A stretch of 64,000 nt of DNA from NCBI RefSeq assembly GCF_024298845.1, contig NZ_CP101156.1:2542001-2606000 (forward strand), written 5' to 3'. The DNA is from Natronosalvus amylolyticus. Its GTDB lineage: Archaea > Halobacteriota > Halobacteria > Halobacteriales > Natrialbaceae. Both the position numbers and the translations under genes were made by a program. This document shows, piece after piece, positions 14,731 to 19,945 of this stretch. The first letter of the stretch is position 1. Each line of letters opens with the position of its first letter. A model generated the notes under the pieces. That model worked only from the letters and a program-made list of their open reading frames with translations. It had not been told where the DNA came from and searched no databases.

Positions 14731-15906
14731 TCAAAGATTTTGCCAGGCGTCGTCGTCTTCCGGGTCCGGCAAGTCATCGAGCTTCGGCGGTTGTTCACTC
14801 GCCTCTTCAGCGGTTGGCGGTGCTGTCGTTGCGTCGTCCGGTGGGGTTGTCTCGCTCGAGGAATCCGTCTCGAGCGATTGTCGCTCGAGGTCGAAGTCGG
14901 GCCAGGCCGTCTCCTCCCAGAGGCCTCGGTCGCTGTAGTAGTACACGACTCCGTCGCTGACGACGGCGAACAGTCCACGGCTTCGGTCCTGTATCACCCG
15001 TTCGTTCGTATCGATAGCAACGTCGACGACGTCTTCCAGGGTATCGAGGGAAACCTGTTCGTCACCGATCCACATCGGGAGCGACCCCTGTGAAATCCAC
15101 TCTGCGTACCGCTGTTCGTGAATCCGCTGTCTGGCGTGTTCGACGTCGACGTCCGAACGCGCGTTGACGAACGCGGCTCCGCCGAACGAACCGAGCGCGA
15201 CCAGGACGAGTGCGCCGAGAAGAGCCGAACTCGGACTCTCGGTTTGCTCGGACGTCTGTGTCAACGGGTGGGTGTCACTCGACGATGGGTGCTCCTCGAG
15301 GTAGTACGTCTCGCCGGTGAGGACGAACGGTGTCGACGCCGTCTGGGTACCCTCGTGGGTGCCCGTATCGTAACTCGTGACGACGACGAGTTCGATGTCG
15401 ACGGTACTGATGCCGGCCAGTTCGTCCTCGAGTTCGGTGACGCGTTCGGCGACGGCTTCCACATCGATGGTCGTCTGTGTCACCGCCCGTTGATTCGTCG
15501 CGAAGGCCTCCGTGGGCTCGAGGGTAACGGTGTCGTCCCAGAACGCCTGGCCGTCACGGCTCGCCTCGTATCTGAGTTGAATCGCATGACTGACTCGAGT
15601 GTCGTCGGTCGGCATGCTGGTTTCCGCAGTGACCTGCAACTCGGGGGTTGCGTTGGTGATGTAGGCAGGGTTGTTCTCGAGGTGGGTGCCTTCCTCCCAG
15701 AGGCCGGATTCGACGACCCTGGCACTCGTCTCGACTTCGGTTTCGACTGTTTGCTGGCCAATCTCTTCGGTTACCGTCGTGGTTCCGGGGGTCGCGATGA
15801 CCCAGCCGGTTGCGAGCAGTGCAACCGCTCCGAGGACGAGTAAGGCGATCAGTATCGAACGCCCGTGCTGGGCGATGAGCAGGTCAAGTCGTGGTGTTTC
15901 GGTCAC
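14731..15906 (-). CDS. DUF5305 membrane protein of the surface-protein locus
   Basis: 391 residues from GTG 15906, which has a GGAGG ribosome site seven bases upstream. A signal-anchor helix (about 17-36) is followed by an extracytoplasmic beta-rich domain (about 40-245) and a second helix (about 250-270, SALLGALVLVALGSFGGAAF), then a cytosolic tail with an acidic, proline-rich end. This plan, with DUF5305 sequence features such as WVIATPGTTTVTEE and YLEEHPSSSDTHPL, is common in haloarchaea next to ER-type signal peptidases and secreted surface proteins, as here. Function unknown; a membrane partner in secretion or fibre assembly is an inference from the company it keeps. Confidence 0.82.
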   Translation of the reverse strand: MTETPRLDLLIAQHGRSILIALLVLGAVALLATGWVIATPGTTTVTEEIGQQTVETEVETSARVVESGLWEEGTHLENNPAYITNATPELQVTAETSMPTDDTRVSHAIQLRYEASRDGQAFWDDTVTLEPTEAFATNQRAVTQTTIDVEAVAERVTELEDELAGISTVDIELVVVTSYDTGTHEGTQTASTPFVLTGETYYLEEHPSSSDTHPLTQTSEQTESPSSALLGALVLVALGSFGGAAFVNARSDVDVEHARQRIHEQRYAEWISQGSLPMWIGDEQVSLDTLEDVVDVAIDTNERVIQDRSRGLFAVVSDGVVYYYSDRGLWEETAWPDFDLERQSLETDSSSETTPPDDATTAPPTAEEASEQPPKLDDLPDPEDDDAWQNL

Positions 15907-16057
15907 AACGTCCTCCAGTCAGGCCCCACCTGACGTCTCTTCAGGTGCAATCATCCGCGTTTTGCTGATTGAACCGATTGCTGATAACTCAGGTGTCGAA
16001 TGGTATAACAGTAGTGGCTCTGTTGTTGCCTTCGAACACTGCACTACAGTGACGCCA

Positions 16058-17227
16058 CTACAGCCACCTGTCAATCAGTCGGTCGAGTCGCGTCGAAAGC
16101 GAGACGTTTCGCCCGGTCGAACGCAGTCGAAAGTCGCTGCGACCGAAGAGCGCCAGAATCAACCCGACCGCGACGCCGACGACGACGACGTTGACGGCGG
16201 CGATGGCGACGAAGGGGTGGATTCCGTGGAGCCAGACCAGCATCGAGGGGGGCAACACGAGCAGATACCGGTTTTCGTACACCGTCATCGTTGCCCGACC
16301 CTCGGTGTCCGGTGCCGTCATCAAAACGGTCACTTCGCCCGTATCCTGAAGCGAGACGGTCGTCGACCGCGGGTCTGCGGAAACCCCCTCTCCCGGGGTA
16401 TCGAGCACTGCTACGATGGGCACGTAGCCGCTGTTGTCGATCGTCCGCGTCACCGTTGCCACCTCTCCGGGGGCGACTGTCTGTGGGTCAGCCGTCGGAT
16501 TTTCGGTGGCCAGCACTTCGTAGGTCGCCCCACCTGCGGGGATAACCATCGCTGCGGTTGCGAACACGGCGAGCAACAGGACGACGACCGAAATCGCCGA
16601 CCAGAGTCCGATGACGTTTTCACGGTTCGTCTTTCGCTCCGTATCCCGCTCGGTCGCCCCGGTTCGCTCGAGGAGCAACCCCACACCGAGCAGTGCGATG
16701 CCGATGGCGACGAGCAGCGCACCGGCGCCGTCGGCGTCGAACGCGGCCGCGATGCCGAGTGGGGCGGCGAGCAGCCCGAAAATCGCGGCGACCACGCTGT
16801 GGACGCTCATGATGAGGGTGCCGAGATGGGGGAGCCGGACCACCGCCCCGTTCACCTGCCAGGCGACGGCGACGATCTGGCCATCGGTGACCGGGGGCTC
16901 ACCCCCGTCCTGGTCGGTAAACGGATTCGCATCGCCTTTGGTTACGTACCCCTCGTCGGTCTCCTCGACGACGCGGTGTGTGGTCAGGCCACCCTCGTGT
17001 AAGGTCTGGGCGTCGAAGACGACGACGTCGCCGGGTTCTGGATCGTCCGCAACGATGCTCGGGACGGCGACGAACCCGTCGCCGGCGTTCAGCGCCGGTT
17101 CCATGCTCCCCGTCGCGACGTAGCCGAGCAACACCGGCTGGCCCAGCAGTTGGCCCACGATGAGCAAGACGAGCGCGAGGCCGACGACGAAGCTCACCCC
17201 TCCCTTGAGCGCTGTCGTCACCTGCAT
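16058..17227 (-). CDS. ER/SipW-type signal peptidase I with a long C-terminal extension
   Basis: 389 residues from ATG 17227 (GTG 17242 is possible). After a membrane helix, GSMEP carries catalytic Ser41; THRVV carries His84; TKGDAN carries Asp99. This Ser-His-Asp set marks the archaeal/ER type, the class to which Bacillus SipW belongs, rather than the bacterial Ser-Lys type. Typical archaeal enzymes have about 170-250 residues; here further helices (about 130-170, 195-215, 345-370) flank a beta-rich extracytoplasmic insert (about 220-330). It stands between DUF5305 and CARDB/TasA-like genes on the same strand, so a dedicated role in processing those secreted proteins is likely. GC content is high as in neighbours. 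Confidence 0.93.
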   Translation of the reverse strand: MQVTTALKGGVSFVVGLALVLLIVGQLLGQPVLLGYVATGSMEPALNAGDGFVAVPSIVADDPEPGDVVVFDAQTLHEGGLTTHRVVEETDEGYVTKGDANPFTDQDGGEPPVTDGQIVAVAWQVNGAVVRLPHLGTLIMSVHSVVAAIFGLLAAPLGIAAAFDADGAGALLVAIGIALLGVGLLLERTGATERDTERKTNRENVIGLWSAISVVVLLLAVFATAAMVIPAGGATYEVLATENPTADPQTVAPGEVATVTRTIDNSGYVPIVAVLDTPGEGVSADPRSTTVSLQDTGEVTVLMTAPDTEGRATMTVYENRYLLVLPPSMLVWLHGIHPFVAIAAVNVVVVGVAVGLILALFGRSDFRLRSTGRNVSLSTRLDRLIDRWL

Positions 17228-17347
17228 CTCCCGTTCACCCACTCGAGCCCGTTCACAGTCGTTCCTCTCTCGAGGCCGAAGAATCTTAATTGGTCCGACA
17301 AGCGGGTCGGGGTGTCCTCGTGTTTGCTTCTAGCCATCGGAGCCACG

Positions 17348-18523
17348 TCACAGCCAGCCCATGCGTCTCGAGTACAGCAGTCCGAAGCCAAACAGTATCG
17401 GAACCGTCAGGGCAACGCCTGTCTGTCCGGGGAGTTCGGTCACCGAGGCCGAGACGAGCGTTGGCTCGACGACGGCGACGCTGCCAGCATCGACGCCACC
17501 GAACGCGAGGCTGTAGCTCCCGGCGTTCTCGAACGTGCGCTCGAGGGTCACCGTCTCCGATTCGCCCGGCTCGAGGTCGACGGTCACCGTATCGACGACG
17601 AAGCCGCCGACGACGACGTCGAAGGTGCGTTCGCCGGCGAGTTCGCCCGCGTTGGTTACATTCGCGGTCAGCGTCACCGACTCTCCGGGCTGAATCTGTC
17701 CGGTGTTCAGGGAGACGCTCGAGACGGTAATGTTCGCGGCTGGTTCGCCCGTTTCGTCCGCGGACACCTCGACGTCTCTCGTTTCGTCTCCGATACCGAC
17801 CGGAACCGTCCCGGGGTCCTCGAGCGTCTGCTCGAACGTGACGGTGGCGGTCGAATCCGCGGGCACGGACACCGTTTGCTGGCTGACGACGACCCCATCG
17901 ACGGTGAGCCGGGCGGTCACGTCCTCGTCGCTGTCACCGCCTTCGTAGGTCCCGGTGATGGTGACCGACTCGCCGGCGGTTAGCTCGAGTGGGGTGACCT
18001 CGAGGTCGACCAGTGACGGTCCGGCGGGTGGTTCGTCGTCATCTGCTGGTGGGTCCGGCGATGGCATCATCGGCGGGGCTGGTGGTGGCGTGCCGTCCCC
18101 GTCGTCGTAGGCCACCGCGAGGGTGATGTTGCTCGAGCCTTCCATCGTCCGCTCGGTATCGATGGAAATTCCGACACCGGTCGGGTCGTCAGTCTCGAGG
18201 GTTAGCGGCTCATTCTCGTTGATTTCGTCGCTTCGGTCGCCGGTCCCATAGAAGCTGAGGCCATCGCTTTCGGGCTCAATCCACAGATGAGCAACGCGGT
18301 CGTCACCGGCCTCGACGGTAAACAGTTCGTCGACGCTCGTGACCGCGTCCTCGTTCAGTCCCTCGAAGTCGAGCACCAGCTTACCGTCCTCGATGTCGGC
18401 GTATTCGCTCGTGGCATCAAATCGGATGTCGCCGGAGGCATCGTCCTCGAGTGAGATTGCGGCTGTGGGCACGGCTAGCGTTAAGACGAATACTACCGCG
18501 ATTGCCACGAGTTTGGTTTGCAT
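17348..18523 (-). CDS. secreted TasA/DUF1102-like protein with two CARDB repeats
   Basis: 391 residues. Sec signal peptide 1-24 (cleavage near PTAAIS). Residues 25-140 resemble the DUF1102 protein encoded next door: DFEGLNEDAVTSVDELFTVE mirrors its DLDGDVNENAVTRFDDVLTI stretch. A proline-rich linker (about 143-170) follows, then two CARDB-type beta-sandwich repeats (about 172-258 and 262-345, both with TAGESVTITG/QPGESVTLTA and PADSTATVTFEQTLEDPG/EPGESETVTLERTFENAG pairs) and a C-terminal hydrophobic segment ending SRRMGWL, probably a membrane anchor. Likely a cell-surface structural or adhesion protein and a substrate of the adjacent signal peptidase; the latter is inference. Confidence 0.85.
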   Translation of the reverse strand: MQTKLVAIAVVFVLTLAVPTAAISLEDDASGDIRFDATSEYADIEDGKLVLDFEGLNEDAVTSVDELFTVEAGDDRVAHLWIEPESDGLSFYGTGDRSDEINENEPLTLETDDPTGVGISIDTERTMEGSSNITLAVAYDDGDGTPPPAPPMMPSPDPPADDDEPPAGPSLVDLEVTPLELTAGESVTITGTYEGGDSDEDVTARLTVDGVVVSQQTVSVPADSTATVTFEQTLEDPGTVPVGIGDETRDVEVSADETGEPAANITVSSVSLNTGQIQPGESVTLTANVTNAGELAGERTFDVVVGGFVVDTVTVDLEPGESETVTLERTFENAGSYSLAFGGVDAGSVAVVEPTLVSASVTELPGQTGVALTVPILFGFGLLYSRRMGWL

Positions 18524-18579: not shown

Positions 18580-19122
18580 TTATGCGCTATTTGCTATGAT
18601 GGTGATCCCATTTTCCGGTATGTCACTGGGTGAACTCGTATCCTGGTAACCAAATACCACATTAAATTCAACCTTTCCTCCAGCTCCATCCAACTGCTTA
18701 ACCTCGTTATCGTCAACGCTGTCGTAATCGCCGCCACTGATTACTTCAAATTGGAATCCGCCGTCATCTCCAGCATTTGATGTGATATAGGTATTAGATG
18801 CTTCATTAGCATCTTGGATCTCGATATCTACTTTGTCCTCCTCGTTTTCGCGGTGGTTGGTGATGGTGAGAACGTCATCAAACCTAGTTACTGCATTTTC
18901 ATTTACGTCACCGTCTAGATCTAATTCAATTTGGTCAGCGTCCCCACCAGCTAAGTCTCCACTGACATCAAACCGAATCAGTGCAGCGTCGTCACCTGCA
19001 GTATCAATGTCCACGTCTCGAGTCGCTTCCACACTGCTAAACGCACCCGTTCCGAGTGCGGCACCGCCGCCAGCGACAATCGTTCCCAGTCCAATCAACA
19101 CGTTGCGTCTGTTTGCTCTCAT
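18580..19122 (-). CDS. DUF1102 secreted protein, TasA/camelysin-like
   Basis: 180 residues. The N-terminus ANRRNVLIGLGTIVAGGGAA followed by GTGAFSSVEATRDVDI is the standard DUF1102 export signal and start of the mature beta domain. The acidic body with a regular strand pattern recalls the TasA/camelysin group whose bacterial members are cut by SipW and form surface fibres. The DNA is much AT-richer than its neighbours: a hand count over three sequence lines (18601-18720 and 18781-18840) gives 77 G/C of 180, about 43 percent. It is the promoter-proximal gene of the minus-strand surface operon. Confidence 0.85.
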   Translation of the reverse strand: MRANRRNVLIGLGTIVAGGGAALGTGAFSSVEATRDVDIDTAGDDAALIRFDVSGDLAGGDADQIELDLDGDVNENAVTRFDDVLTITNHRENEEDKVDIEIQDANEASNTYITSNAGDDGGFQFEVISGGDYDSVDDNEVKQLDGAGGKVEFNVVFGYQDTSSPSDIPENGITIIANSA

Positions 19123-19258
19123 TGGTAATGTCTCCGTACGACCTGCCCGAGTAACCGTAACCGCCAGTTACTCGAGGCAGTTCTTATCCATACCTACACA
19201 CACCTACCCACTTTGTATTGGGGTGCCCGAACCCGTTCACACCGACTGATACCGCCGT

Positions 19259-19315
19259 TCAAGCCCGGCCTGAAGCCGCTGCTCGAGTCAGCGATAGGCT
19301 ACAGGCCGGGCTTGA
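19259..19315. promoter_or_regulatory. long inverted repeat in the divergent promoter region of the surface locus
   Basis: A perfect 14-base inverted repeat, tcaagcccggcctg at 19259-19272 and its complement at 19302-19315, with a 29-base spacer. If a two-base bulge is allowed the arms extend to about 22 bases (outer arms near 19249-19258 and 19316-19325). It lies between the divergent DUF1102 gene (start 19122) and the winged-helix membrane protein gene (start 19406), where an operator for both would be expected. A cruciform or RNA hairpin is the alternative. Confidence 0.6.
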
Positions 19316-19405
19316 GAACGCCGTCGTGAGAGTCACGCTCACGCACGTTGGCCAACAGAGATATATGTCCCAATCGGCAATCTATCACTACGAGCGACAC
19401 GTTTC

Positions 19406-19945
19406 ATGGGTGTACAGCACACGTCCGGGGGGACCAGCCGTGGTGATGTCTTTAGCCTGCTGAGCAATCAGCGCCGGCGCTATACGATTCACTATCTCAA
19501 ACGCGAGGAAGACCCCGTCGAACTCGGGGAACTCGCCGAACACGTCGCCGCCTGGGAACTCGAGAAAGACGTCGCCGAACTCACCTCGACGGAGCGAAAG
19601 CGGATTTACACCTCGCTCCAGCAGACCCATCTGCCGACGCTCGAGCGCGCGGAGATGGTCACCTTCGACGATCGGACGATCGAACTCACCGAAAACGCCC
19701 GCGACCTCGAGGTGTATCTCGACGTCGTCCCCGAGGACTCGGTCCCGTGGGGGGTGTACTACCTCGGCCTGTCCGCACTGGCTGGGGTCGTGCTGGCTGG
19801 ATTATGGCTCGAGGTAGTCCCAACCGAAACCGTCCCACTGCTCGGCTGGGCGACGATACTGGTCGGCCTGTTCGCCGTTTCTGCTGTGGTGCACGTCCTC
19901 GAGAACCGCCGGATGCGGCTGGGGCAGGGGGAACGCCCACCGTGA
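19406..19945 (+). CDS. winged-helix (DUF7344-type) protein with two membrane helices
   Basis: 179 residues. Residues 13-100 form the haloarchaeal DUF7344-like winged helix (DVFSLLSNQRRRYTIHYL, VELGELAEHVAAWE, ERKRIYTSLQQTHLPTLE, MVTFDDRTIELTENA). Two hydrophobic helices follow (about 112-132 and 138-160), so the DNA-binding part is probably tethered to the membrane. It is divergent from the secreted DUF1102 gene across a long inverted repeat and is followed after 10 bases by a secreted protein gene, so it is a good candidate regulator of the locus, perhaps sensing envelope state. Confidence 0.88.
   Translation: MGVQHTSGGTSRGDVFSLLSNQRRRYTIHYLKREEDPVELGELAEHVAAWELEKDVAELTSTERKRIYTSLQQTHLPTLERAEMVTFDDRTIELTENARDLEVYLDVVPEDSVPWGVYYLGLSALAGVVLAGLWLEVVPTETVPLLGWATILVGLFAVSAVVHVLENRRMRLGQGERPP

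Follow-up and report, generated by a model that had tools for sequence, protein, structure and literature searches.

A long inverted repeat beside a haloarchaeal DUF7344 gene as a probable helically phased operator pair of a secreted-protein promoter

Introduction

Within the 64-kb stretch of the Natronosalvus amylolyticus genome analysed here (the window; G000:C1:2542001-2606000), a long inverted repeat (19259-19315) occupies the space between two divergent genes, a DUF1102-type secreted-protein gene on the minus strand (18580-19122) and a winged-helix gene on the plus strand (19406-19945). The initial annotation, which placed the repeat correctly between them, offered it either as an operator pair for the winged-helix regulator or as a cruciform switch, and the question is what this repeat is for. 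The explanation that we favour, and regard as reasonably probable, is that it forms a helically phased operator pair serving mainly the DUF1102-type promoter. This pair would probably be bound by membrane-tethered dimers of the DUF7344 winged-helix protein that activate the promoter, and the hairpin would be a by-product.

"DUF1102-type" is a label taken over from the initial annotation, and we called relatives of the gene by an N-terminal signature (RRNVLxGLG...GTGAFS) that its product has in common with theirs. The Pfam DUF1102 model had no match to the 18580-19122 protein at E <= 0.1. A weak sub-threshold DUF1102 match (0.0048) falls on a neighbouring CARDB protein instead. Next to the DUF1102-type gene, likewise on the minus strand, the interval 14731-18523 encodes DUF5305, signal-peptidase-like (S26, below the cut-off) and CARDB proteins, which together with it resemble a surface-protein cluster.

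Structure of the repeat

The perfect 14-base arms (TCAAGCCCGGCCTG; 19259-19272 and 19302-19315) and the spacer of 29 bases were recovered exactly as first described. The arms lengthen to 19 nt with 95% complementarity and, past the two-base bulge that had also been reported, the outermost pairs are 19256-19320. No second inverted repeat (perfect arms of at least 12 bases, loop of 3-60) was detected in the window. In 30 copies generated from it by a first-order Markov model, seeds of 12 averaged 0.7 and seeds of 14 averaged 0.0. The whole element occurs once in the 4.2-Mb genome. Folding of the 96-nt repeat segment as DNA gave -28.7 kcal/mol, compared with -15.35 (sd 2.26) for shuffled sequences (z -5.9), and the two strands folded as RNA gave z -4.4 and -6.2. 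The GC content over the arms is 0.65 and that of the flanking 60-base windows 0.48-0.57, so that the arms are GC-rich as had been noted, while their surround is AT-rich in relative terms only.

Each arm is itself a quasi-palindrome of the type TTCAAG-N5-CTTGAA, a property absent from the initial annotation. The left arm (19258-19274, TTCAAGCCCGGCCTGAA; candidate operator dyad 1) agrees with this type at 11/12 positions and the right arm (19300-19316, TACAGGCCGGGCTTGAG; candidate operator dyad 2) at 9/12. Both dyads are 17 bp long, and their centres lie 42 bp apart, i.e., four helical turns. Because the left arm is near-palindromic, repeating it once is enough to give the appearance of a long inverted repeat.

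The dyads are placed with respect to an octamer, TTTGTATT on the plus strand (19212-19219), which towards the DUF1102-type gene, on the minus strand, reads AATACAAA and is probably the core promoter element, presumably the TATA box, of that gene. Using this octamer as anchor, dyad 1 stands at +46 and the DUF1102-type start codon is 89 bp away; the locus accordingly has the three features by which we define the module, namely TTTGTATT, a DUF1102-type start no more than 100 bp away, and TTCAAG at +45/+46. At +14 there is a degenerate half-site, CCCGAA (19226-19231, plus strand), where most of the Natrialbaceae loci shown have CCAGAA and loci of other families have CTTGAA. On the opposite side, GATATATG (19361-19368, plus strand) may be read from the sequence as a possible TATA box of the winged-helix gene.

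Conservation of the promoter module

We compared 85 loci, comprising the best 80 of 207 winged-helix-relative loci in named genomes, our own locus and four congeneric loci. A divergent DUF1102-type gene, recognized by its N-terminal signature, was present in 34 of the 85 and absent from 51. With our own left arm as query, 20/33 of the other divergent DUF1102-type loci contained a match of at least 13/17 positions (13 of them at least 14/17), where shuffled sequences average ~10/17. None of the 50 winged-helix loci that lack the divergent gene and are long enough to score reached 13/17. The match stood at +45/+46 in 18 of the 20 loci and at +24 in the remaining two (L090 and L091).

A search for TTTGTATTR-N34-39-TTCAAG returned 58 matches in 56/125 genomes of the family, compared with one for the reversed-pattern control. 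We fetched 30 of the 58 matches, and in all of them (30/30) a DUF1102-type start follows 53-93 bp beyond TTTGTATT. Among the 27 fetched loci with similarities below 80%, the dyad's second half (CYTGAA) is kept, as are CCAGAA at +14 and ACCCAC before the TTTGTATT anchor, all of which lie outside the search pattern. This conservation of elements that the search did not demand, along with the 30/30 DUF1102-type starts, indicates that the dyad belongs to the DUF1102-type promoter. When the anchored loci were pooled (n=60; 30 from the winged-helix set and 30 from the pattern search, with some genomes represented twice), the first dyad was found at +45 or +46 from TTTGTATT in 52/60. The eight anchored loci without it (L084, L086 and L088-L093) are from outside the Natrialbaceae, judging by their titles.

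The initial annotation had suggested looking for the arms upstream of related loci, and what turned out to be conserved there was the 17-bp dyad and not the long hairpin. Used as a DNA query, the 96-bp element matched 7/125 genomes of the family and was found whole only in the sister species (93%); the matches in five other genomes were short and partial, one (G063) lying in its module and the rest being L005-L008. Sites resembling the dyad (<=3 mismatches) were not enriched genome-wide (19 vs. 27 for the control), and we rejected a genome-wide dyad regulon in this genome. Taken with the single copy of the element, this identifies it as a local element.

An apparent second pair of sites (C1:2045117 and 2045213) was discarded since it falls within a long coding frame whose product resembles, by eye, a HIT-family protein. 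The same genome contains a paralogous divergent winged-helix/DUF1102-type pair spanning G000:C1:2086807-2088218 (L043, L149), and at pair A (C1:2086807-2087724) a diverged relative of the module can be discerned by eye (GTATTGG...CTTGGAA...CCTGAA). At paralogous pair B (177847-178306), also a winged-helix/DUF1102-type pair, no module was seen.

Recurrence of the second dyad

The second dyad was sought, with a threshold of at least 8/12 positions, in those 32 of the 52 dyad-bearing loci whose similarity beyond the first dyad is below 60%. A second dyad was present 41-42 bp after the first in 7/32 of these non-redundant loci, that is, in our own, L048 (Natribaculum), L074 (Natronococcus pandeyae), L171, L176 and L182 (genus g16), and L156, a doubtful case. 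None of 1000 shuffles reached 7/32 at any spacing. If our own locus and the doubtful L156 are left out, 5/30 remain, and the shuffles reach 4 at most (0/1000). The other 25 of the 32 loci have no second dyad at 41-42 bp, including those of the congeners G111, G114 and G117. The comparison therefore bears out the operator pair that had been proposed, in that the first dyad is fixed relative to the promoter and the second recurs 41-42 bp further on in other genera.

In G117, G111, G114 and L072, inspection by eye shows a short GCCGAAATCGGC-like palindrome after the first dyad (~+62 to +80 from TTTGTATT) and a weak TTTGAG/TCTGAG half-site near +78.

Half-site spacing in other haloarchaea

In loci of other groups, CTTGAA is found at +14 and +35 from TTTGTATT. 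A search for this form yielded 13 matches in 6/392 genomes of the order (control, 0), and in one locus (L195) CTTGAA stands at +14, +35 and +56 as a 21-bp tandem. Across 51 non-redundant loci, our own included, 10/17 half-sites beyond +63 fell within 1 bp of the rungs of a 21-bp ladder, compared with 2.4 expected. The best period was 21.0 among those tested (8-31.5), and 1/173 permuted 6-mers equalled the ladder score of CTTGAA. Kinship among genomes inflates the p-values; counted by hand once per genus, the result was 7/13 (p 0.0009).

A test of the ladder used loci picked by TTTGTATT and the +14 site alone. This search gave 27 matches in 18/392 genomes (control, 0), of which 12 had been seen before and one was redundant, leaving 14 loci. 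In these loci from other families, 11/12 further half-sites stood on rungs; L201 repeats L084, and without it the count is 10/11 (p 3e-8). The DUF1102-type signature lies within 100 bp in 9/15 of the new +14 loci, and L196 and L205, which have no such signature, look like chance matches. At our own locus the rungs are occupied at +14 (CCCGAA, degenerate), +57 (CCTGAA) and +99 (CTTGAG).

For 12 of the 13 loci from the +14/+35 search, a DUF1102-type gene is indicated, by match or by signature, no more than 130 bp away. In genus g87 (family f4), the +14 form of the module is present in 2-5 copies in 4/6 genomes, a possible regulon (loci of the g87 group: L183-L186, L189-L195, L200 and L218).

From these comparisons, the control region looks like one common to many haloarchaea, with sites spaced by two turns of the DNA in front of secreted-protein genes, and it usually appears to lie near a gene for a membrane-anchored regulator. 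As to why the period should be 21 bp, we hypothesize that a regulator anchored in the membrane reads only one face of the DNA along the membrane. A broader generalization can be advanced only tentatively: the secreted-protein promoters of haloarchaea may include a widespread class with CTTGAA half-sites arranged as a 21-bp (two-turn) ladder, which a membrane-anchored regulator reads on one DNA face. The choice of occupied rungs (+14, +35, +57, +78, +99) would then be what evolves, and our own locus would be a two-dyad version.

The candidate regulator

The candidate regulator encoded at 19406-19945 is a DUF7344 winged-helix protein (Pfam, 1e-28) with two predicted C-terminal membrane helices. 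DUF7344 was the sole Pfam match above the cut-off, and no HAMP or sensor domain was found in that search. An AF2 model (pLDDT 82.3, pTM 0.65) consists of a winged helix followed by helices 115-134 and 145-169, whose membrane character was judged from the sequence. Aligned with VIA-align, the model resembled MarR-type structures with Z up to 10.4, and the haloarchaeal RosR structures 6qfd and 6ez1 with Z 9.6 over 83 residues and Z 9.2 over 78 residues, respectively. Foldseek returned no match at E <= 0.001 and a PDB sequence search no useful relative, so the statement about the fold rests on the model and VIA-align. In the sister species (G113) the protein is 97% identical, and our own genome has 19 matches to it at E <= 0.001. 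A protein 51% identical to the regulator is also encoded on a contig of a metagenome-assembled genome named "Mollicutes bacterium" (L118; PULR01000059.1), a label that is probably wrong.

At a cut-off of E <= 1e-60, an orthologue of the winged-helix protein was present in 85/125 genomes of the family and in 55/56 of those with the module (Fisher 3e-12, uncorrected for kinship). The 56th genome (G072) has no orthologue, and its module match, which lacks CCAGAA, is probably due to chance. The orthologue lies within 10 kb of the module in 53/55 genomes and within the 1.5-kb flank in 16/30 of the fetched module loci; 30 of the 85 orthologue-bearing genomes have no strict module match. In other families, a winged-helix homologue was found within 6 kb of the +14 form in 17/19 genomes (the 18 with a TTTGTATT and +14 match plus G366, the nearest copy being taken). 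The two exceptions, G155 and G197, are the genomes of the two chance-like matches. The nearby homologue of G385 matches in part and scores a little below the best one in that genome. Matches at the level of orthologues occurred in 13/19 module genomes vs. 4/27 hand-picked related genomes without a module match, a comparison to which we give little weight because its cut-off (~2e-55) was set afterwards, with three of the 27 just above it.

This co-occurrence and co-location make it plausible that the dyads are sites for the DUF7344 regulator. The comparison of loci further points to the DUF1102-type promoter as the apparent conserved target, and not to the gene of the regulator itself.

Alternative explanations and proposed mechanism

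The hairpin itself might be the selected feature, with the long arms extruding as a cruciform or being transcribed as a stem-loop, and its perfect 14-bp arms and strong DNA and RNA folds would suit such a role. We consider this very improbable. The core arms of the sister species carry three mismatches, and its 66-nt segment folds with -15.6 vs. -26.8 kcal/mol for ours; at z -3.3 the sister-species fold still exceeds its shuffles in stability. Across the other 13 loci with two dyads, which include near-identical relatives, complementarity is found mainly at the dyad positions (mean 8.2/12), with 1.7/5 in the centre and 4.2/12 in the flanks; conservation of the hairpin across relatives was rejected on these two observations. 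The element appears to be upstream of both apparent promoters, and since these point away from the repeat, neither transcript should contain it. A known RNA element was likewise rejected, there being 0 Rfam matches at the gathering score in the window. The sister species and the 13 loci thus do not support the cruciform switch of the initial annotation, and an inversion reading is likewise not supported. Even more remote, in our estimate, is an origin as the end or remnant of a mobile element (an IS200/IS605-type hairpin or a MITE) or as an invertible segment. Such an origin would account for the hairpin shape, and in G112 an apparent IS200-type transposase gene can be seen by eye at the same intergenic place. 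It lies directly upstream of the winged-helix gene (L030, ~901-1300 read in reverse orientation), where congeners have the DUF1102-type gene and dyad. Against this origin, the dyad is kept across genera at a promoter-fixed spacing, the sister species has a collinear spacer, and a search for several copies, as an IS200/IS605 end or MITE would have, found one in the genome.

A more serious contender, possible if rather doubtful, is that the dyads serve the DUF1102-type promoter for another regulator, such as a soluble factor or a protein of the cluster, with the DUF7344 protein a mere neighbour. The module is kept in 14/30 fetched loci without a winged-helix gene in the 1.5-kb flank, and few of the multiple +14-form copies in the four g87 genomes have such a gene flanking them. 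What argues against this alternative is the winged-helix homologue within 10 kb (family genomes) or 6 kb (other families) in nearly all module genomes, as well as the adjacency, at our own locus, of a gene for a predicted DNA-binding protein. Co-location could reflect the whole gene cluster, and another cluster protein may bind. It also counts against the operator-pair explanation that our own +14 site is degenerate (CCCGAA), as do the 25/32 loci with no second dyad at 41-42 bp, the 30 orthologue-bearing genomes with no strict module match, the lack of genome-wide enrichment of the dyad and the paralogous pair B with no module.

Under the explanation that we prefer, the region controlling the DUF1102-type gene would contain, upstream of it, two 17-bp quasi-palindromic operators. 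The membrane-tethered DUF7344 protein would bind both dyads as dimers sitting next to each other along the same DNA face. Together with the half-site beside the core promoter, the bound dimers would activate transcription of the DUF1102-type gene; repression seems less likely because the dyads apparently stand upstream of the core promoter. An effect of the operator pair on the divergent promoter of the regulator gene itself is also possible. The long hairpin would then result from having two near-palindromic sites whose sequences are alike.

Comparison with known systems

An open-access literature search found no paper on DUF7344 or DUF1102, none on haloarchaea with SipW and TasA, and no relevant title on TTCAAG in archaeal promoters. 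Nothing on the site, its ladder, the target or the haloarchaeal protein family came up in that search. Membrane-helix DUF7344 winged-helix proteins are numerous in haloarchaea, and a conserved, position-fixed candidate operator with its target promoter makes the function of DUF7344 directly testable. The 21-bp ladder in turn gives a quantitative prediction for a membrane-bound DNA reader, namely dependence on helical phase.

The winged-helix fold of our model matches that of RosR from Halobacterium salinarum (6qfd, 6ez1), whose chains are not known to contain membrane helices. RosR functions in oxidative stress (PMC3443676). CsmR of Haloferax volcanii is a 13-kDa winged-helix regulator whose semi-palindromic site, TATCA-N4-TGATA, adjoins surface-filament genes (PMC13286277); it shares with our system a haloarchaeal winged helix and a semi-palindromic site and differs in its 13-kDa size and in the site itself. 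EarA of Methanococcus maripaludis is a winged helix-turn-helix activator acting through 6-bp TACATA sites at a surface-filament promoter (PMC6396743, PMC13286277). It is similar in combining several short sites upstream of a promoter with a winged-helix regulator, and different in having TACATA sites and in being described, in the excerpted passages of these sources, without a membrane anchor.

Sulfolobus already provides a known case of inverted-repeat boxes that occur in pairs and are served by a membrane-bound regulator. As described in PMC6396743, ArnR and ArnR1 of Sulfolobus acidocaldarius are membrane-bound one-component regulators with an N-terminal HTH and two C-terminal membrane domains. 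Their box-1 and box-2 are two 15-bp inverted repeats (TCGAC-N5-GTCGA) at -43 to -84 upstream of flaB, from which ArnR is reported to activate, both boxes being needed for binding (PMC6396743). Our system differs in lineage, half-site letters, box spacing and target (DUF1102-type vs. flaB), and a HAMP or sensor domain was not found in our protein. Like ArnR, the candidate regulator has an N-terminal winged helix and two predicted C-terminal membrane helices, and it is accompanied by two 15-bp repeats with an N5 centre (TCAAG-N5-CTTGA type) upstream of a surface-type promoter.
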